From NCBI GenBank assembly GCA_006384855.1, contig VCJN01000224.1, positions 244,090 to 308,089 of the forward strand: a DNA stretch of 64,000 nt, given 5' to 3'. Both the position numbers and the translations under genes were made by a program. The notes under the pieces are model-generated. The model searched no databases. It saw nothing but the letters and a program-made list of their open reading frames with translations, and was not told the origin of the DNA. Of this stretch, positions 3,658 to 52,923 are shown piece after piece; the stretch's first letter is position 1, and each line of letters starts with the position of its first letter. The stretch is from Tetraselmis striata (lineage: Eukaryota > Chlorophyta > Chlorodendrophyceae > Chlorodendrales > Chlorodendraceae).

Positions 3658-6005
3658 CTATAGCTGGAAATATTTCCCATTCCCAGTAAAATCCAGGGCG
3701 CCGTGAAGGGAGGGGGGGACCCCGCCCAAAATAAAGGCAGTTAAGTCCTCAGGCGTTGACGCACTAACCTGACTACTAATAAAATCCCTGAACTCCGGAA
3801 CTAACAACCCAAAATTATGACGGTGATACCCCCACCGCGGGCACTCCACCAACATATGTTCGATAGTCTCAGATTCACCTCCGCCACATGCAGGGCAGTG
3901 TTCAAGGAACCGCTCACGCATGGCATGAATCCGGGCCAATCGGCGGGCAGTGGGAAATACTCGGGTGCGTAATTGTATCATAATGTGCAACCCGGCCACA
4001 ACCCCCGCGGGGACACCCACACCGTACTGTGGCAACGGGTTTGACGCATAGGACGCCTGGACGCATATATGCCCCAGGTGTTATTGCGTGCTAACGATGC
4101 CGACGATTCGTAACGCGCCCACACCGATGCCTTTACTAGTTTAGCGGCATCGCGCGCGGCTAGTGACCTCCACTCAAGTGGAAGGTGCGCCCCCTCAGCT
4201 AGCCCTACGTTCGCCCTAGCTAGTCGATCTAACCACCGCACAGTCCCTGACGTCCACGTGTTAGGGCGCGCCCGACTTGGCTGATCTACTAAATGGGTTA
4301 TACATGTATTCAAGTCGGATGCTTTAAGGAACGCCCGAGCCCGTGCCGCAGCGGCCGTAGCCTCTATGGGCGCAATATCCAATTCCCGCATCATCGGTGC
4401 AGTGGCCACCCCAGGGGAGTTTTTACCTACCCCAATGAGGCAACGCAAGCACTGATTGAGTACAGTTTGTAATTTATTTGCGCCGCTAGTTCTATCCATG
4501 CCCCATACTTCACACCCATAAGTTAAAACCAGCAGTACACAGGTTTTAAAAACCGACACACGCACATTAATAGGGATTATGTCCCGTCCACCGACTAATA
4601 CCGAATCGAGCGCCTCAATAGCGCGTTTACCCTTCTTAACCCGGTCGTCTACTATGTGTTGCATACCTAAATCCGACTTAATGACCGTACCCAAGTACCT
4701 ATATTCATTTACAACCGGTACCCGTTCCCCCCCAAGCTGCCATCGGGCAGCTTGTTCGCGTAACGCGGTCTCGTCGGAATATCGGCCTAATGCCATCACG
4801 CCACACTTAAGTACCCCAAACCTCATAAAATGATCCTCCGCCCACTGCGAGAAGTGGGCGAACATGGCATGCAGGTTATCGAACGAGCCTGTGATACCAA
4901 CAGCGTCGTCCGCGTATAACTGACCTGGCACCCTTAGTGGTCGCCTTGCCGCTAATGTGTCAGTGCACCCTGGTACATCACATCCTAGATGTTCTACCCC
5001 ATCGAATATATCGTTAATAAATATGTTAAATATGATGGGGGAAGCGGGGCACCCCTGTCGGAGGCCACGCTCTATGGGTATGGGGTCTGATAGTGTTCCC
5101 GGGGCCACCCTTGTCTTGACCCGTACCATACTATCCCTGTATAGAGTTTTAATGAAGGTAAGCATATGACCCGTAACTCCTATGGCTTGTAGTTTTAGGA
5201 ATAAAAGCTCATGAGGTACGGTGTCATATGCCTTCCTAAACTCAATAAAACCCGCGTAGGTGGGTAGACCTGCCGCTTGGCGACGAGCCGCGATATCGAA
5301 CAAGCTGGCGACTTGCATGGGGCCCTCCTCATTCCGCATAAAACCCGCTTGCCAACGGCGGATTATCCCTTTAGCTTTGCAGACGTCTTGCAAGCGTTGG
5401 GAAATGACGGTCATAAGGAGTTTCATAGCGGCACCCATAATCGAAATACCCCTATAATTGTCCATAACGGTCGCGTCGCCTTTCTTGGGCACCGATACTA
5501 TGGCCGAGCTACGCCACTGCTGGGGGATATAGTTCTTAGTCCATATCCCATTAATTAAGGCCAGCAATGCCTTGCCAAAATGGCTATTCGGGGCGTATAT
5601 CGCCAATTTTAAAGCCTCTGCAGTGATCCCATCCTGCCCCTGGGCCTTATTATATTTTAAACGCCTAAGAGCCTTGACTAGTTCCTCCCATGTTATATGC
5701 CCATTAATCCCGTTTAGTGCGGGGGCAATGGGTGGGGATGTACCGTGGCGGTGTTCCCACGCCGCACGGTATATCGCAACCCGTTGTGCTAGGGGGTGGG
5801 GGTCACGCAGCAACTCCCGATAGATACTATGGTACTCGCTACTCGCTGCTGGTAATGGAAAAAAAAACTCTGGTACTTCATAGCGTTGGCAATGCGAACG
5901 CTCGCTGCTGGTACTGGTACTCGCTACTCGCTGTTGGTATTGCTGGTACTCGCTAATCGGTGCTGGTAATGGAAAAAAAACTCTGGTACTTGAAAGCGCT
6001 GGCAA
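3658..6005 (-). mobile_element. Non-LTR (LINE) retrotransposon, RT domain, 5'-truncated and frameshifted
   Basis: A minus-strand reading frame open from about 6005 to 3978 encodes a LINE reverse transcriptase. In order it shows an N-terminal NKAQGQDGITAEALK motif, the fingers/palm motif GFIEFRKAYDTVPH, RGLRQGCPASPIIFNIFIND and the catalytic YADD box, then a thumb region. The frame shifts near 4040-4060, and the next frame (4035-3658) supplies the C-terminal CPACGG...H...C zinc knuckle typical of LINE ORF2 ends. No endonuclease domain is present, so the copy is 5'-truncated. The first catalytic acid of motif A is Glu where Asp is expected. The frame does not start with ATG. It is probably dead. 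Confidence 0.9.
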
Positions 6006-6035
6006 TGCAAACGCTCGCTGCTGGTAGCGACTACT
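5831..6035. repeat. Tandem duplication at the LINE 5' end
   Basis: A unit of about 114 bases containing TGCTGGTAATGGAAAAAA and CTCTGGTACTT is present twice in tandem. It also contains shorter internal TACTCGCT repeats. The duplicated unit is why the N-terminus of the RT frame carries two FFPLPA segments. It marks the truncated 5' boundary of the element. Confidence 0.75.
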
Positions 6036-10615: not shown

Positions 10616-13600
10616 ATGGGCGCTACCGCTGACAGGATGGCCGCAGGCAACCAACCTACGGCTGCTGCTGGCGTCACGGGCCGCAGGAGGTCCCGCCGTT
10701 CAGGAAGCACCCACGTCGCGCCCTGTCCACTCCACCGCTTCCGGTTGCGCTGGGCAGTGTTGGCGGTCGTCTCGGTGCTGAGCGCCTGCGGGGTTGCGGA
10801 GGGCCTCCCCGAGCAGTATCAGCAGGTGCTGGACCACCTGTATGGGCCGACCCGCCTGGGGGCAGGCACGTCACCAGAGGTGTGCGCCCCCGAGGCGGAC
10901 TGCAAATCTCCGCACTTTCACCAATACGGGCCTACGCCGGCCCCCAAACAGCTGAGGATGGTCGCTCTCCTGGAAGCGTAAGCCTCCCCGCCTTAGGAGA
11001 GCCATCCCATCCCGATGCTGATTGCCGTGCCCTCCTATGCGTATTCAATGCGCAGAAGGAAATAACAGTCATGTAACCTACCACCTGATCAACCAACCTA
11101 CTCATGTTGCGCCATATGCAGGGAGTGCCCTGTGACCTACGACTTTCGGGCTGAGCATACATGCAACAACAACGCCAATTATGTTGCTATGAACTACTGC
11201 CTCGATAAAGGGCTTCCATTTGCGGATAATGAGAGCGCTGAAATGCAGCGGGAGAAGATTGGGTACTACAAGGCAGCGTGAGTGGATGCCCTGCCAGCGC
11301 ATGGTAATTGCGTGCGTGTCTGCGCTCACTACGTGAGGACGGCCTGCGGAGGGAGCATTACGAGTTGGTTTGTGCGCAGGTACACAGCGATTTTCCGTCG
11401 CGTGATGCCCGTCATGTGGCAACGAGGATGGCAACACTTCCGAGTCATATCTTACCCGAGCTCGGAGGTAGGCGCCACCTACTTGTAGATGCATGCACCC
11501 TCGGGGCATGCCGTGAGTAGTAGCGGGAGCGTCCACACAATGCTGACCCGCATTGCTGCCGCCCCCTCGCAGCCGGGAGCCGCAAAGGAGCAGAGGGGCA
11601 CCAAGCCCTGGCAGCTGGTGGAGGATGCCGACATCATCATTTGCTCCACGGCCCACTTTCGGTGAGCCGCGACACGCAGAGCCTGGTGGCCGTGTTACTG
11701 CCCATTTGCGCAGCCCGGGAGCCAGTGTATAACAACAGGCCTGCGTGCGCCATCTCGTGCAGGGAGATGATCGTAGCCTATCCGGACAAGCGCTACATCC
11801 TGGTGGCAATCAACGACGCTGCGACGATACCCACAGCGATGCGATGCGATCTCGGTGCGGCCACGGGGCATTGTGACCTGCCCCTGGTGTGCACCCGCCG
11901 GTGGTGGCTGATTCCGATGCCGCGATTGCCCCACCATGTGCCCCTGTGCAGAGGACGGGCGCATCCTGGCGCTGCTGCAGCACACCAGCCTGAGCCCCCT
12001 GTCAGAGAACAACGAGGACCTCAAGGGCAACCGCCGCCACTATATCTGGCTGTCGGGCAACAACAAGACCTTTGACAGCCTGGCGCCCATCACCCGGCGG
12101 GCTCTGCCATTATCGCCGCCAGCTATGGACAAGGTGGGGACCACGAGTGCAAAGCTCCGTGTCTGACTATAATTGCAACTCTATTCTTTGCAGTGCCGCT
12201 GCTGGCCGCGACACTGCCCCCCTCGCTCTTTGACTTTTCTAGCATGGATGATAGCGTGATTACAAGCTCGGTTCTTTGCTAATGCCGCTGCACCCGCCCA
12301 CCAGGTGGAAACGATGATTCCGCAGGTGTACCGATGGAAATGGCCGCTGGACTGTGGCGGCAGAGGAAGGTGCGGAGAATGATACGTCTCACTGGGTCCA
12401 TTGCTTTGCTCATCTTTGCCTGCTTGAGAGCGTGGTCCGACACCGACACACACACAACTACACACACTGACACGCGGATCCACTCCTCACCCCCTCCGTG
12501 CTCCGCGCCCCAGTTTCACGGTGCTGCAAGGAGCGTTCTCCGCCAGCTACAAGGACTATGCGAAGGACTTCACTGCGCGGCTGGGCCGCCGGACCGCCTC
12601 GCAGGAAGGCTGGCGCGCCCGGCGGAAGCGCGCGAAGGAGACGTTCATCCCGTACACGCAGCGCAAGTATGACATTGCGCTCGTGAGCACCATCAGCAAC
12701 CGGGGCAACAACCGCGGAGTGTACGGCATCAACCGGCACAGGTGGGAGCGGCGTTCACACGCCCTCGTCAGCGAGCCTCCCTCCCGCTCTGTGTGACTTG
12801 ATTGTGGGGAGAGCCATGCGCATGGTTAAGCTCTCGGTGCTGACCCATTGTTTGCTCTCAGAAATTGGGTGCTAGCGAGCTTCTCGTTTTGATATCGTGA
12901 TGTATTCGTCTTAAGGTGGACCCATAGGGACACGGTGCGTTTTTTTTTTCTTACTGTCAGGCCGGCACTGTAGCCTTTTTCAGCTAATCACTGTTTATCA
13001 TATAGATTAGACATACAGGGATTGTCTAATCCCTCATTGTGTATGCAGGTAGAGTTTTAGGGTTATAGCAATATTAAGAAAAGTGTTTCATAATAAAAAG
13101 AACATTTCTTTTGAAAATGGATCAAATCAGATGAAAAAACTAACGAGAAGATCCATCTGCCGCGATGAAAACAAAAGCTATCTGCCAGGCGGCCACATCT
13201 GCTAGCCGCTTGCGCGAGTTTGACGGCTCTCTTAAGTTCTGCTTGGGTGTGTGCACTCAATGACACACCCCCATATCCTTTGCTGCCGTCTGCCAGGCAA
13301 CAAGCGCAGGATGCCGTCAACAGGCTACAGAAGCGGCACCCGCACGTCACCGTCTTCATGGCTGACTACAAGATCCGATACACCAGGTTTATCGCGATCC
13401 TGCGCGACAGCCGGGTCGTCATCAGCCCCTTCGGGCTCGGCGAGTTTTCGGGCAAGGACTACGAGGCGATGCTCGCTGGAGCACTGCTGGTGAGCAGCCG
13501 CGCGTGCGGCCGCCGTATCGTGACCGTCCCCTTCCCTTCCATGCCGTGTCTTCCCGCCCTTTTTTTGGGGGGGGGGGGGGTTACATGTCCACTGTCCATG

Positions 13601-14176
13601 ACGGCTTGACCTGTTCATGACAGAGTGTGTCTACAGTGTGGGTACCTGACGCTAATGGTTGTGCAGGTCAAGCCGCTCGCACGCAAGCTGAAGGCATACC
13701 CCAACATCTACAGCAGCCGCTACGCGCTTGACGTCGAGGTGGACTTCAGCAACCTCGAGGAGGCCGTCATGCCGTACCTGGAGTCCATCACCCTCGCCCG
13801 CACGCGCATCGAGAACACGCTCAACATGCTGCAGCGGTACTCCACCACAGACCAGTTTGCCGACGACCTGGAGGAGCTGCTGCGCAAGGTGGCGGCGCGG
13901 CCGACGGCGTTCGACCCGCGCGGGTGCTTCCGCACGCCCGACTGGCTGATCCAGGACGACGGCACACACATCAGCCGCGAGGCCGCGGTGGAGGCTGCAC
14001 AGGAACGGGTCGCCGACGGGCTGCCAGTGTACCCGCCAACAGTGGAGGTTGACGCCAACAACCTGCTGGACATCCTGCCGAGCCCACCGCCGCCCGAGCG
14101 TTCCCCTGCAGGCTCCATGCCGCATGCCGCACCCGCACCCGGGGATTTAAAGCAGGATGGCTTTGGTGAGGTTTAG
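10616..14176 (+). CDS. CgeB/GT4-like type II membrane glycosyltransferase, copy B
   Basis: Ten exons give a 654-residue protein with consistent phases: 10616-10977, 11122-11277, 11380-11467, 11573-11661, 11763-11854, 11952-12133, 12305-12369, 12514-12741, 13297-13489, 13667-14176. The start was chosen because an Arg-rich cytosolic tail is followed by one hydrophobic helix (about residues 44-62, WAVLAVVSVLSACGV), the layout of Golgi/ER type II glycosyltransferases. Mid-protein KPWQLVEDADIIICSTAHF and IVAYPDKRYILVAIND look like Rossmann-type strands. The C-terminal half holds SPFGLGEFSGKDYEAMLAG (about residues 463-481), a CgeB/GT4-like donor-binding motif. The Pro-rich tail ends QDGFGEV. Copy A at the left edge is its duplicate, and the IMP2-like gene converges 175 bases downstream. 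Substrate is unknown; the fold-level call is inference. Confidence 0.85.
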
Positions 14177-14560
14177 GGATTAGTTGTCTTCGGTGATGTC
14201 ATGTCGCCTGTCATGGGTCGCCCGGGGATTGGTACAAGGCGAGAGCAAGGGCCCAGCATGGATGGGGCGCCTCGATTCTTTTTGGTTAGTTTTAATTGCA
14301 ACCTAAATTGTATCGAATGGAAGCCCTCCTCCGCCTGTGCACCCGCACTCTCATGCCTGGCTGGCTACGGGCTCGGCATGGCGCCTTGCGGGCGCCGGCA
14401 GGGAGTGGACGAGACGCATGCGGGAGGGAGGCCACACGACAGCAGACACGGTCCCCAAGATGAGGCCTGTGGGTATCTGCACCCAGGCAGCGACAGCGAC
14501 CAAAATGTCATGACGGAGCAATCGCGGGGGCGGCGGAAGTATGATGTGCGCAGATGTGTG
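11855..14560 (+). repeat. Segmental duplication, copy B
   Basis: Partner of bases 1-2935. It includes five exons of the glycosyltransferase and the last exon of the convergent peptidase gene. Relative to copy A it lacks about 140 bases before the glycosyltransferase stop and 68 bases of the last intron. Confidence 0.85.
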
Positions 14561-47290: not shown

Positions 47291-47857
47291 AATCTGGTCG
47301 CTGTAACGTACCTGTAGTCGGCACCCCTACATGCATTATTAAACCTTATTCGCGCTTCTACTACGACTAGTCGCTACTGCTTTCGTACCGCCAATAATAT
47401 GCTGTACGAGTGCCGCCGACCCGGCCGGTCCGCTTTTTTTTTCCATCGCAGGTCCGCTTTATATCCTGCATCAGCGCGCCGATGACCGTCCCCTCCCGCC
47501 CCGATTTTGTTGTCCCTTCCGCCCGCTCGCCGGCCGCCGCCGTAATTTTCACGACGGCTGCTACGAGTACCCTGTACTTGCGGTTCCTCCGCGGTGTTGG
47601 CGACAAGGATAGCACCCTGAGGGCGGCCCGGCAATCCTGAAACACTCGCGACGGGCGCGGACTCAGCGCACCCTCCCTTCCCTGCAGCGACAGAGCAGTC
47701 GGCGAGCTGGTAGCCCCAGCGGCAGGGATTGGGCGAGGCTACGGCTCTTGCCGGCACACGGTCCGAGCCGGGCGTGCGGCCTTGCCCTGCTGCTTCTAGC
47801 ACTCGCTTACTGGAGACGCGGATACAACATAAATAATTCCGCTTCTATTTATGCGCG
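47291..47857. other. Upstream region of the A-T-TE gene
   Basis: No exon recognised. An out-of-frame ATG at 47851 sits seven bases before the chosen start and could affect initiation. Otherwise I see no clear promoter element. Confidence 0.45.
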
Positions 47858-50800
47858 ATGGCGGTCCGCCGGACCGCCGGGATGCAGCGCAGCCCGTCGG
47901 CCACGGCACACTTCCTGCGGCCCAGCCACGAGTACATCTCGAAGGGCGCCCTCTCTAACCCGCACGCCCCGGCGCTGCGCGCGTTCTCGGCGTCGGAAGG
48001 CGAGGACGCGGGGGCGGTTTATAGCCTGACGTACAGCGAGCTGGACGCGGCGGCTCGCGCGGTGGGCAGGATGATGGCGGGGTCAGGGGTGCGGCCGGGC
48101 AGCCGCGTGGCGCTGCTCATCCCGCGCGGCGTGGAGGCGGTGCTGGCGCTGGTGGGCGCATCGGTGGCGGGCGCGGCGTACGTGCCCCTCAACGCCGCCG
48201 CGCCTGTGGCGCGGCTGGTGCAGCTGTGCCGCGCGGCGGAGGTGGCGGTGGTGGCCACCACCAAGCAGCACATAGACCTAGGCTTCGAGCTGGTGGGCAC
48301 CCTGGGCGCGGCGCTGCTGCTGGTGGACCGCCACCACCACCACGGGCCCGGCATCCGCGGCGGCGACCCGGACGTCCCCGACACTCGCGCCTGCCTCCGG
48401 GCGCTTCCGGAGCCTTCTCCGCGGCGCGACGGCGAGGATGCCGAGTCGGAGGACACGAACGGGCGGTCATCGCGCGGAGGGGGGAGCGGGCCGCTGCCCA
48501 GCTGCTCCATCGACGACGGCATGGTGGTGCTCTTCACCTCGGGCACGACCGCCAAGCCCAAGGCCATGGAGCTCACGCACCGCGCCGCACTGCACCACGT
48601 GGCGTTCTACGCGGCCGAGTTTGCGGCGCGCTCGCCGGTGCCCGTGGTCGCCGCCTGCATGAGCGCGCTCGTGTTCGACATGCACATCAGCGAGCTCTTC
48701 CCGCCCTGGGCCACGGGCGGCTGCGTGGCGCTGCTGGACGCGCCCGACAGCGACCTGCACGCGCGCGTGCGCTGCCTGGAGCACGCCACCATCAGCATGT
48801 GGGTCCCCTCCGTGCTCCGCTCCTGCCTGCAGGCCTTCGTGGCGATGGGCGTGTCCGCGGCCCACATGCGGCAGGTGTTTGTGGCGGGGGAGCAGCTGGT
48901 GGTGAGCCTGGTGCAGGCGGTGTTTGACGCGTGGGAGGGCGTGGAGGAGGTGATCAACGCTTACGGCCCCGCGGAGACGCACGTCGTCACCGTCCACCGC
49001 GTGCTGCGCGACCGCTGGCCGCCGCCGGGCGTGCGCCACAGCCCCTCCGTCCCCATCGGCCGCGCCGTGCCGGGCGTGCGACTGGAGCTGCGCAACCGCA
49101 CCATCTCGGCCGGCGGCGGCCTGGAGGGCGAGCTGCTGGTGTCGGGCCCCTGCCTGGCGAGCGGCTACATCGGCAACGCGAGCAAGACGAGCGAGAAGTT
49201 CCTGGTGGACGAGGGCGGGGTGCGCTGGTACCGCACAGGCGACCACGTGGAGCTCACCCTGGACGGCGACTGGCTGTTCATCGGTCGCATCGACGCGATG
49301 CTGAAGAACCGCGGGCGGCGGATCGAGCCGGAGTGGGTGGAGGCGGTCGCGCGCGAGGCGGGCGCGGACGAGGCGCTGCTGGCGTCGGTGAGCGAGGAGC
49401 TGCTGCTGGCGTTTGCGGGCGCCGCGGACCCGGACGCCGTCGGGCGTCACCTTGCAGCTGTGCTGGACACATACAGCGTGCCCGACCACATCCTGCGCGT
49501 CCCCGACGGCTTTGCCTGGCCGCGCCTCGCCAGCGGCAAGCTCGACCGCGCCAGCGGCGCCGCCCACCTCGCCGCGCTGCGCGACGCCGAGCTCGCCCAG
49601 CAGCGGCTCGGCGGCAGTGGCGGCGGTGGTGGCAGCGGCGAGGGCGGGAACGGCGGCAGCGGCGGCGCGCAGCCGCACTGCAACAAGATCGTCGCGGACT
49701 TTCTGGCGGGGGTGGCGTCGCTCTCCTCGCGGCCGCCTGACCCCTCCAAGCCGCTGCAGCTCAACTCCATCCAGGTGAGGGAAGGCGGGGTGAAGTGCGT
49801 GGGAGTTGCTGGCGGACTAAAGTTCTACCCCCCCCCCCCCCCCCCCGCTTCCCGCGGAGTGGGCACTGAGCATTGCCATCGTCAGGCGGTTTGAATCTTT
49901 TAATTGATGGCCTGACCCCGGCCTGACGCGCGCGGTTGCTGTGCTGCCGCCCCGCCCCGCAGGTGATGACGCTGGTGGGCGTCCTGAACCTGAACCCCGC
50001 GCAGGCGCGCCTGCTGCGCAGCATGCCGGAGGTGAGCGTGGAGACGCTGGCCATCCAGGTGCACAAGGCGGCGGGCGCAAGCGCCCCCGAGGCGGCCACC
50101 CCGCTGCGCAAGCTGGCGGACCTCGCGGACGATCGCGCCGCGCGCCCGCGCGACCGCGCGCCCGTCTTCATCTGCCCCGGCGCCTTTGGCCGCACCTCCA
50201 ACCTGCGCAACCTGGCCAAGGAGCTGGTCGCCGCGGGGCTGGGCCCGGTGTATGGCTTCGAGACGCCCGTCACGGAGCCGCGCCCCGACAGCGTGGACGA
50301 CCTCGGCTCGCTCTTTGCCGACGCGATCGCCGACGCCAAGGTGACGCCGGTGGCCAGGGCGGACGCGGCCACATTTGATTGTGGGCATATTATACTTGCG
50401 TTATATATATGACTAATCTATGTCATATTCGTGCATTCTAATGTGTTCATAAAATGATAGTTAGACATGAAAAGAAATAGCTGCGGAGGACCGGCACATT
50501 GGCGGGGGTAACAGTAAAGATCGCCCCAGGACATTGGCCGAAGCCGCCCCAGCACTTGGCCTCTTGCGCCAACTGCAGTCGTAAGTCTGGCATAGCCCAT
50601 AGACCATTGCCTCATTCGAACCCCGAAGGGTAAATGCATCAACCGGGTAAACCCGGGACACGCCGGGCCGATATTGCCGAAATACATCAGCCAGGAATCG
50701 AACCCGGGTCTCTCGCATACGAGACGACCGCTCTACCGAGCGGACACGGGTTGCACACGGGGGTATATGCATGGAGGCATCATTCGCATCGTATACGTTA

Positions 50801-52923
50801 AAGTGAAGATGACTCTTTCCGATTTTGGAACAAATCCTGAACTACAACGGGCCGACGTGCTGCTTGACACCTCCCGCACCAGGCGGCTCTTACTCGGCCC
50901 ATGTCTCAGCGGGCGTTGCGTGGCACAGTTGGCTGAAAAGTGCGTTGATGAAGCAGGTGTACACCTGTAGATGCTGTGTAGTCAATTGTCCACATGCACA
51001 GGGGTGGCGCGTACTGCTATCAATGACAATACGCATGTATATAGTGTAATATGTATATGTTTGTGTATGTATGTGTATGTGTACATTTTTATATTGCATC
51101 TTTATTGTATTATATATTCTACATATCTGTGTTGAATATATGTGTATGTGTATATATATAATATGTGCAGGTATATGTATATATATGTATATGTATATGT
51201 ATATATATATGCAGGTATATGTATATGAATAGGTATATGTATCTATATATGTCCTTCAGCCACCTGCACCATGATGCGTGACGGATCATCTCTCCCTTTC
51301 TCTCACAGCATTGCTTATCGTGTAGGTCGCGACTCCAGTGGCATCGTCATTCACACCGCACTGTCTGTTCCTATCCGCTGCTCACCGCTGCCCCCCCCCC
51401 TCCCCCCCCCGCCCAACATCCCGCGTGCCCAGGTGAAACTGGAGGGCCGCGGCTGCGTCATAGTGGGGCAGTCCTTTGGCGCGCTGCTGGCGCTCAGCCT
51501 GGAGGCGCACCTCCGGCGGCGCGGGCACCGCGTAGGCGCCGTCGTGGCGCTCGACCCGCGCCGGCAGTGCTGGCTGGACGCGCCGCCGCCCGGGACGGAC
51601 GGCGCCGCGGCGGACCCGGGCGAGCCGCCGCCGACCGCCAAGGCGCTGCAGGGCCACCTGCGCTACACCGCCGCGCTGCGCGCCATCACCATGGGCAGCC
51701 CCGAGCTGCGCGTCATCTACGAGGAGATCCGGGACTCCGACAACCCGTGCGAGGCCTTCCGAAGTCGCATGCCCCCCAAGCAGGCCAACCAGACGCGCGC
51801 CATCCTCCGCGAAACCGAAACCATGGTAAGACCCCCCCCCCCCCTTCCTCCCCCTCCGACACGCTCGCCCAGTGGCTGACGTGCAGCGGAGGCGTTTTGT
51901 TTCCATTTGTATGGAAACAAAAGGACGAGTACCTCGGAGACAACCTGCCACGGATCGAGCGGGTGTCAATGTCTTCATCTACATAGGTGTTAACATCCAT
52001 TTGTACCTCTCCGGGTACCCCTCTGAGTCAAAGATTCTTTTTCGCATTATAAGTCGCTACTGTTGATGCAATCCGCTCTGTCGTCATCGGCACTGTATAT
52101 TTTCGCCATGATTCATGTCGATTTTTCCTTCCTTTGGATTCGCCAGATTTGCCGGTTGGGAAGCGAGGGGTTATCTTTGGGTCTATCAAGGGTATTTGGG
52201 TTTCGTCATATTCATAGTCGTAGTCTATTAATAACATCAATTTATAATATGCTGGATGTACGTGTTGGGGGGTCGATTTTCAGGGCTTTTACTTATTGTG
52301 ACTCCATGAGTGAAAGGCCTCAGACTAGGGGGCTTGGGGCTGTTAGGGTATGATGAGGTGTGACCGCACCATAGAGCGCTGCCGACGCGGAACCGTTGAA
52401 CCCCTAAAACCTTTGAGTTCTGCTTAAATGTAGGCTTTTTCTTTCCCCAGTACTTTCCGTGCATTTTCCGGACACTCTCCCTGTAGCCCAGAAAATCTAA
52501 AACCTACATCTGCATGCCTGCACACGCTAGACAAACCCTAACTTCAGATCACGTGTGTCGCCGGGTGCCTCTCGTCTACTGCAGGTGGGCATGCTGGACT
52601 ACAGCCTCGCCCTCTGGAAGTCCATCCCCGAGAACCACTTCCGCCCCACCGCGCCGCTCCTCGTCCTGCAGGCTGCCTCCGAGGAGCATGCAGCGGGCGC
52701 GCCGGGCCGCACGGAGGCCACGCGGACGGTGCTGGCCGCCATGTGCTGCAGCCACGACCCCGCCCCGGATATCACGCGGATCCCCGTGGCGGGCGACCAC
52801 TTCACGATCGGCTACCGGGACAACGCCGTCTCTGCGGCGGAAGCCATCAAGCACCGCCTAGAGCTAGCGGCCAATGAGGGGCGCCCACCCTGGCTTGCGT
52901 CCGGGGCGCCAATGCATGTATAG
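47858..52923 (+). CDS. NRPS-like adenylation-carrier-thioesterase (A-T-TE) enzyme
   Basis: Four exons (47858-49774, 49963-50340, 51433-51825, 52585-52923) join in phase to 1008 residues. The adenylation domain activates a carboxylic acid as its AMP ester: VVLFTSGTTAKPKAMELTH (about 225), YGPAETH (about 368), YRTGD (about 457), GRIDAMLKNRGRRIEP (about 475) and LASGKLDR (about 555). A linker of Gly/Ser repeats leads to a carrier-like segment with LQLNSIQV, whose Ser (about 637) is the expected phosphopantetheine site. The C-terminal alpha/beta hydrolase has FICPGAFG, VGQSFGALLAL (nucleophile Ser about 780) and GDHF (catalytic His about 969). There is no condensation domain, so it cannot build a peptide. 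The layout equals that of fungal atromentin-type synthetases; the substrate is unknown. C-runs occur in all introns on the sense strand. Confidence 0.92.
50395..50755 (-). mobile_element. tRNA-derived SINE-like sequence in an A-T-TE intron
   Basis: On the minus strand 50750-50691 has a tRNA-like head: GCTCGGTAGAGC (shortened D-arm), an anticodon arm with loop CTCGTAT (anticodon CGT, threonine-like) and a perfect T-arm/B box CCGGGTTCGATTCCTGG. The D-loop is about four bases short and the acceptor stem does not pair, so it is not a working tRNA. About 290 bases of unrelated sequence follow 3', ending in a TA-rich stretch, as in a SINE body. No second copy was seen in the window. Confidence 0.5.
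51040..51260. repeat. TATATG-rich microsatellite
   Basis: Alternating TATATG and TGTATA runs occupy most of this part of the long intron 50340-51433. Confidence 0.85.
52426..52503 (-). repeat. Dispersed repeat R3, copy 2
   Basis: Inverted relative to 26908-26982: AATGTAGGCTTTTTCTTTCC, CCAGTACTTTCCGTGCATTTT, CACTCTCCCTGTAGCCC. It lies in the last intron of the A-T-TE gene. Confidence 0.65.

Follow-up and report, generated by a model that had tools for sequence, protein, structure and literature searches.

A four-exon gene of Tetraselmis striata predicted to encode a single-module synthetase-like enzyme with adenylation and thioesterase domains and a divergent carrier-like segment

What kind of acid would be handled in a green alga by an enzyme that joins an adenylation (A) domain, a carrier-like (T) segment and a thioesterase (TE) in a single chain, with no condensation (C) domain? 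The question is raised by a gene at positions 47858-52923, forward strand, of a 64,000-nucleotide stretch of the Tetraselmis striata assembly (hereafter the window), for which a preliminary description had implied the aryl-pyruvate and quinone chemistry of fungal enzymes. We find this to be a real four-exon eukaryotic gene that is kept by selection, and we see an even chance that it encodes a single-module enzyme resembling nonribosomal peptide synthetases (NRPSs), made up of an A domain, a divergent carrier and a TE, which would handle an α-amino acid and leave release or transfer of the product to the TE.

The four exons are read in a single frame, are separated by three GT-AG introns, all of phase 0, and encode a product of 1008 residues (Table 1), as the preliminary description had proposed. 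An in-frame stop lies at 47834, 24 bases 5' of the ATG, and further exons upstream of that stop are possible; the fraction of G+C at third codon positions is 0.88-0.96 across the exons. The introns, the size of the assembly and neighbouring TTL, kinase and PH-domain genes also bear out the earlier view of the host as a eukaryote. Searches of the alga's own genome (an assembly of 224,097,584 bases in 2,903 contigs, the window lying on contig C175) identified a second copy of the gene on contig C1264 (L125), whose separate exons match at 88-99% protein identity and which retains all of the splice sites; the list of 18 matches, drawn from 45 scored candidates out of 53, has no other above 42% identity. 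The surroundings of this copy (27 kb compared) are colinear with the window from 36.7 to 64 kb at 92-97% DNA identity, save for brief breaks in the match around 47 kb and 54 kb, and the copy is probably the other haplotype, with a recent segmental duplicate as a possible alternative.

Between the copies, 28 of 3027 exonic sites differ (0.9%), as against 69 of 2037 intronic sites (3.4%; Fisher p 7e-10), and divergence per segment is 0.25-1.1% in exons and 2.1-4.8% in introns. The coding changes comprise 20 synonymous and 8 non-synonymous differences, giving a ratio of non-synonymous to synonymous rates (dN/dS) of ~0.15. Since the constraint is confined to the exons and accompanies a spliced open frame, it supports a gene under selection. 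Counting against full conservation is a 1-base difference that the C1264 copy shows towards its 3' end, either an allele or an assembly error, which leads to a 994-residue product that is altered only just before the stop, after the TE histidine.

A Pfam scan of the product returned AMP-binding (PF00501, E 1.5e-55, residues 35-437) and Thioesterase (PF00975, E 5e-8, residues 706-807), and no condensation family up to E 1, in agreement with what was first described for these three kinds of domain. The TE has its expected triad in Ser779 of GQSFG, Asp806 at +27 and His968 of GDHF, and an Asp at +27 from the TE serine is present in all six bacterial T-TE modules located by pattern. In sequence, the solved structures that come closest belong to NRPS proteins, headed by linear gramicidin synthase. 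Among NCBIfam models the A domain scores highest with TIGR01733, which describes amino-acid adenylation in general (residues 58-500, 2.9e-75); its 253.6 bits lie below the curated cut-off of 317.4.

To read the substrate code we compared the A domain with 85 bacterial A domains, namely the best 80 of at least 583 bacterial and archaeal relatives plus five plasmid loci; these rows were chosen for their resemblance to the query and with the help of two sequence patterns, and frequencies among them are not those of A domains in general. Code columns anchored on the core motifs in two alignments, with which a HMMER structure alignment agrees, yield the ten residues DMSSFAAVVK, the extraction that had been suggested at the outset. 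Asp274 stands at position 1 (Table 1), and position 10 is Lys561, the equivalent of GrsA Lys517, which is Lys in 82/85 bacterial rows. According to PMC12283262, all α-amino-acid-activating domains carry Asp235 and Lys517, and PMC10316625 states that a first-position Val indicates enzymes that use α-keto acids. By its code, with Asp235 and Lys517 present and the first-position Val absent, the A domain thus appears to be of the amino-acid-activating type.

Between the A domain and the TE, the preliminary description had noticed a carrier-like serine motif, LNSIQ at Ser637, and here its claim stands in part, the spacing being fitting and profile support lacking. Lys561, the lysine of core motif A10, and Ser637 are 76 residues apart, a distance that shrinks to 57 when the Gly-rich linker of 19 residues is left out, and the corresponding distance in bacteria has a median of 55 (5-95% 44.5-58.6, range 39-87, n=115). 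Ser637 lies 27 residues from the helix-IV landmark, and with the same pattern bacteria have 27 or 28 in 71/76 cases; when the segment was shuffled 20,000 times, 66 of the shuffles reached the combined geometry. The distance from carrier serine to TE serine is 142 residues here and 128-137 in the six bacterial T-TE modules. Residues 606-703 hold 3 synonymous and 0 non-synonymous differences between the copies, while residues 585-605 hold 3/8 of all amino-acid differences (binomial p 5e-4), and one in-frame 3-bp insertion in exon 1 falls, by the printed copy, in the Gly-rich linker. Semi-global profile alignment at two settings was equalled by 12/400 and 90/400 shuffles, the first setting giving a z of 2.2 with Ser637 off the carrier-serine column and the second a z of 0.8 with Ser637 on it. 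The case for a carrier is made up of one alignment, the LNSIQ motif and the spacing, and from these we judge a functional carrier to be somewhat favoured.

Several observations weigh against a working enzyme of this kind, and most of them concern the carrier. The PP-binding family PF00550 has no match in the whole product at E 1, or in two isolated fragments at E 10; the preliminary description had treated a missing match around residue 637 as fatal, and formally its reading of the carrier falls by that standard, although the spacing keeps a carrier plausible. Local profile alignment of the carrier segment was equalled by 135/300 shuffles and outscored by other windows of the same protein, A-domain windows outscored the segment in both semi-global settings, and a MAFFT alignment made without exon 2 placed Ser593 of the linker, rather than Ser637, in the conserved serine column. 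The helix-IV pattern needed one extra letter (Val), the narrower pattern finding no match in this protein, and the geometry tests were devised once the motif was already noticed. Within the A domain, Ala232 of the P-loop takes the place of a Gly that is present in 85/85 bacterial domains, a change that may weaken adenylation, and the best agreement of the code with any bacterial row is 6/10 places, so that no side chain is predicted. A partial screen of the window recognised no tailoring or transport partner: of its open reading frames, ranked by codon score, ten were scanned against Pfam and 6/10 had a family (RVT_1, Tim17, PH, kinase, TTL, DUF3429), none of them a tailoring enzyme. A six-frame search, made without introns, found a single ACPS-type phosphopantetheinyl transferase match (PF01648), on the bacterial-looking contig C2280.

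The alternative that survives best, which we nevertheless hold to be unlikely, is that the segment between the A domain and the TE is no working carrier, in which case the protein would be an A-TE fusion that works with a trans-acting carrier, or one that makes a free aminoacyl adenylate, or some further acyl ester, for its TE-like hydrolase to handle. In its favour, a hidden Markov model built from 64 bacterial T domains is as silent on the product as PF00550 is, and the sequence LQLNS lacks both glycines of LGGxS (the missing GGDS had been correctly noted at the start), while a different A-plus-carrier gene of this genome, also with introns, has retained LGGHSLLA. Searches of the carrier-TE fragment against the PDB and NCBIfam returned weak thioesterase matches of erythronolide synthase and Pks13, low-complexity chance matches and nothing else, and a PF00550 scan of the genome that ignored splicing gave 79 matches, none on the window's contig. 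The spacing on either side of Ser637 speaks for a carrier all the same, as does the freedom of residues 606-703 from amino-acid differences between the copies, right beside a fast-changing linker.

A degenerate or repurposed synthetase, which has lost catalysis and is retained for another role, seems improbable to us. It would account for Ala232 in the P-loop. The preliminary description had read the altered core motif A3 correctly: TSGTTAKPKAM does not match the TSG(S/T)TGxPKG P-loop of amino-acid-activating A domains, and beyond Ala232 it has Ala236 where 81/85 bacterial rows have Gly and 4/85 have Ala. A degenerate enzyme would also suit the unrecognisable carrier and the A-domain tree of 86 rows (the 85 others bacterial), in which this protein has the longest end branch, 2.78, where the median is 0.66. 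However, Glu373, Asp462, Arg477 and Lys561, the further catalytic residues that were checked, are intact, as is the TE triad, and the low dN/dS argues in the same direction. The tree, its comparison rows all bacterial, gives a long branch and no placement; the divergence once claimed for the clade persists as branch length, and the sequence comparisons support a single-module synthetase-like enzyme on a divergent branch. Least probable is an aryl α-keto-acid enzyme of the fungal quinone or furanone type, in which two pyruvates would be dimerised on the TE, since the domain order is that of the fungal enzymes but code position 1 is Asp where the rule in PMC10316625 calls for Val, Lys517 is also kept, and the top NCBIfam model is one for amino-acid adenylation, albeit below its cut-off.

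In the single-module amino-acid enzyme that we propose for this nuclear gene, the A domain would, judging from its code, adenylate an α-amino acid, the aminoacyl group would be loaded onto the phosphopantetheine of Ser637, and the Ser779-Asp806-His968 TE would either hydrolyse it off or pass it on to a small nucleophile, with tailoring in trans as a possible step before release. The nearest working precedent may then be bacterial NikP1/NikP2 (PMC4147253), where a modified amino acid is handed over by an A-T didomain together with a thioesterase, rather than the fungal quinone synthetases; the likeness lies in the proposed logic of an amino acid that is activated, held by a carrier and released by a thioesterase, and is a functional analogy only. 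More tentatively, and with the odds against it, purifying selection may have maintained an amino-acid A-T-TE enzyme through the replacement of both its P-loop Gly and the GGxS loop of its carrier. Such an enzyme would release or transfer a single residue, in contrast to the fungal A-T-TE enzymes characterised so far, whose reported substrates are α-keto acids.

Table 1 Features of the gene, with positions in the window
Feature	Position	Strand	Remarks
Exon 1	47858..49774	+	Residues 1-639: N-terminus, A domain, Gly-rich linker, first half of carrier-like segment
Core motif A3, TSGTTAKPKAM	48536..48568	+	Residues 227-237; Ala232 at Gly place of relatives
Asp274	48677..48679	+	Equivalent of GrsA Asp235; code position 1; Asp in 85/85 bacterial rows
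Gly-rich linker	49610..49666	+	Residues 585-603; 2/8 amino-acid differences between copies, a third at residue 605
Ser637	49766..49768	+	Candidate phosphopantetheine-bearing serine in LNSIQ; by spacing, with no profile support
Intron 1	49775..49962	+	188 bp; interrupts carrier-like segment after SIQ
Exon 2	49963..50340	+	Residues 640-765: second half of carrier-like segment, TE start
Intron 2	50341..51432	+	1092 bp
Exon 3	51433..51825	+	Residues 766-896: TE core including Ser779 and Asp806
Intron 3	51826..52584	+	759 bp
Exon 4	52585..52923	+	Residues 897-1008: TE C-terminus including His968, stop codon

The layout as such is not new, since genes that combine A domain, carrier and thioesterase have already been described as widespread in algae; PMC7073580 speaks of their 'surprisingly wide distribution' and likens them to fungal benzoquinone enzymes, which makes the epithet 'unusual algal A-T-TE' of the preliminary description an overstatement. 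The 'Other(A)' class of that paper also takes in genes whose additional domains are of different or reducing kinds, and its Table 1 counts 2 in Cymbomonas, 2 in Ostreococcus tauri and 8 in Emiliania, among others; more broadly, PMC10794256 gives 585 NRPS-class candidates, NRPS-like ones included, in 212 algal genomes. This protein is probably a further member of a little-studied class, with two unusual motif changes: it has in common with the 'Other(A)' genes, as described there, the domain order and the want of a C domain, and differs in that its carrier is unrecognised by profile. The fungal non-reducing A-T-TE synthetases for atromentin, polyporic acid and relatives (PMC10316625, PMC9047271) likewise hold A and TE in a single chain with no C domain, together with a T that has a candidate counterpart here, and are set apart by the published rule, having Val, the mark of α-keto acids, where Asp stands here. 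Other single-module enzymes couple amino acids to alcohols, according to PMC10720950, and do so through a C domain. Bacterial NRPS modules resemble the protein in their A domain (24-35% identity over the best segment, among the best 80 of at least 583 relatives), in the catalytic residues checked and in the Ser-Asp spacing of the TE, and differ from it in the P-loop Ala, the missing LGGxS and the length of its branch. No close prokaryotic donor was seen among those best 80 relatives, plasmids or viral contigs; 1439 plasmid records match, none covering 80% of the query, and viral contigs gave no match.

Elsewhere in the genome, a survey of A genes scored 14 of 86 candidates, this gene lying outside those 14, and the eight of them that were compared are intronless with a G+C of 0.64-0.70 and are, we assume, bacterial contaminants. 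Contigs C2280, C906, C1804, C2251 and C1539 carry AMP-binding genes that lie in long open frames and lack introns; they are possibly bacterial contamination of the assembly, for which G+C alone is no proof, the exons of the present gene being equally rich. The frame on C1539 spans 2116 codons and matches AMP-binding and PP-binding twice each and Condensation once, an A-T-C-A-T content that rules it out as a relative of the same layout. The intron-bearing gene with the canonical LGGHSLLA exists as a near-identical pair on contigs C2177 (L127) and C1722 (L128). Contig C1549 (L097 and around) has stop-free frames of 16,476 and 7,889 codons with many PP-binding matches, which may be one or more giant genes of polyketide synthase (PKS) type, recalling the large PKSs of chlorophytes, among them the two of Chlorella variabilis, for which PMC4661987 gives 1.2 MDa.

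Within the window itself, positions 1-2600 and 11855-14219 are two same-orientation copies of one region, 91-97% identical in DNA; by eye their translations resemble an exostosin-type glycosyltransferase, and a Pfam scan of 1539-2534, in the first copy, gave no family. A 685-residue stop-to-stop frame at 3981-6035 on the reverse strand matches reverse transcriptase (PF00078, 3.1e-25) and is probably an element resembling long interspersed nuclear elements.

Since an amino-acid code is possible in a eukaryotic protein of this layout, the analogy with fungal benzoquinone enzymes should be checked code by code before products are named. The protein itself, at 1008 residues and in two near-identical copies, offers a compact target for asking how much drift is possible in a carrier and in a P-loop.

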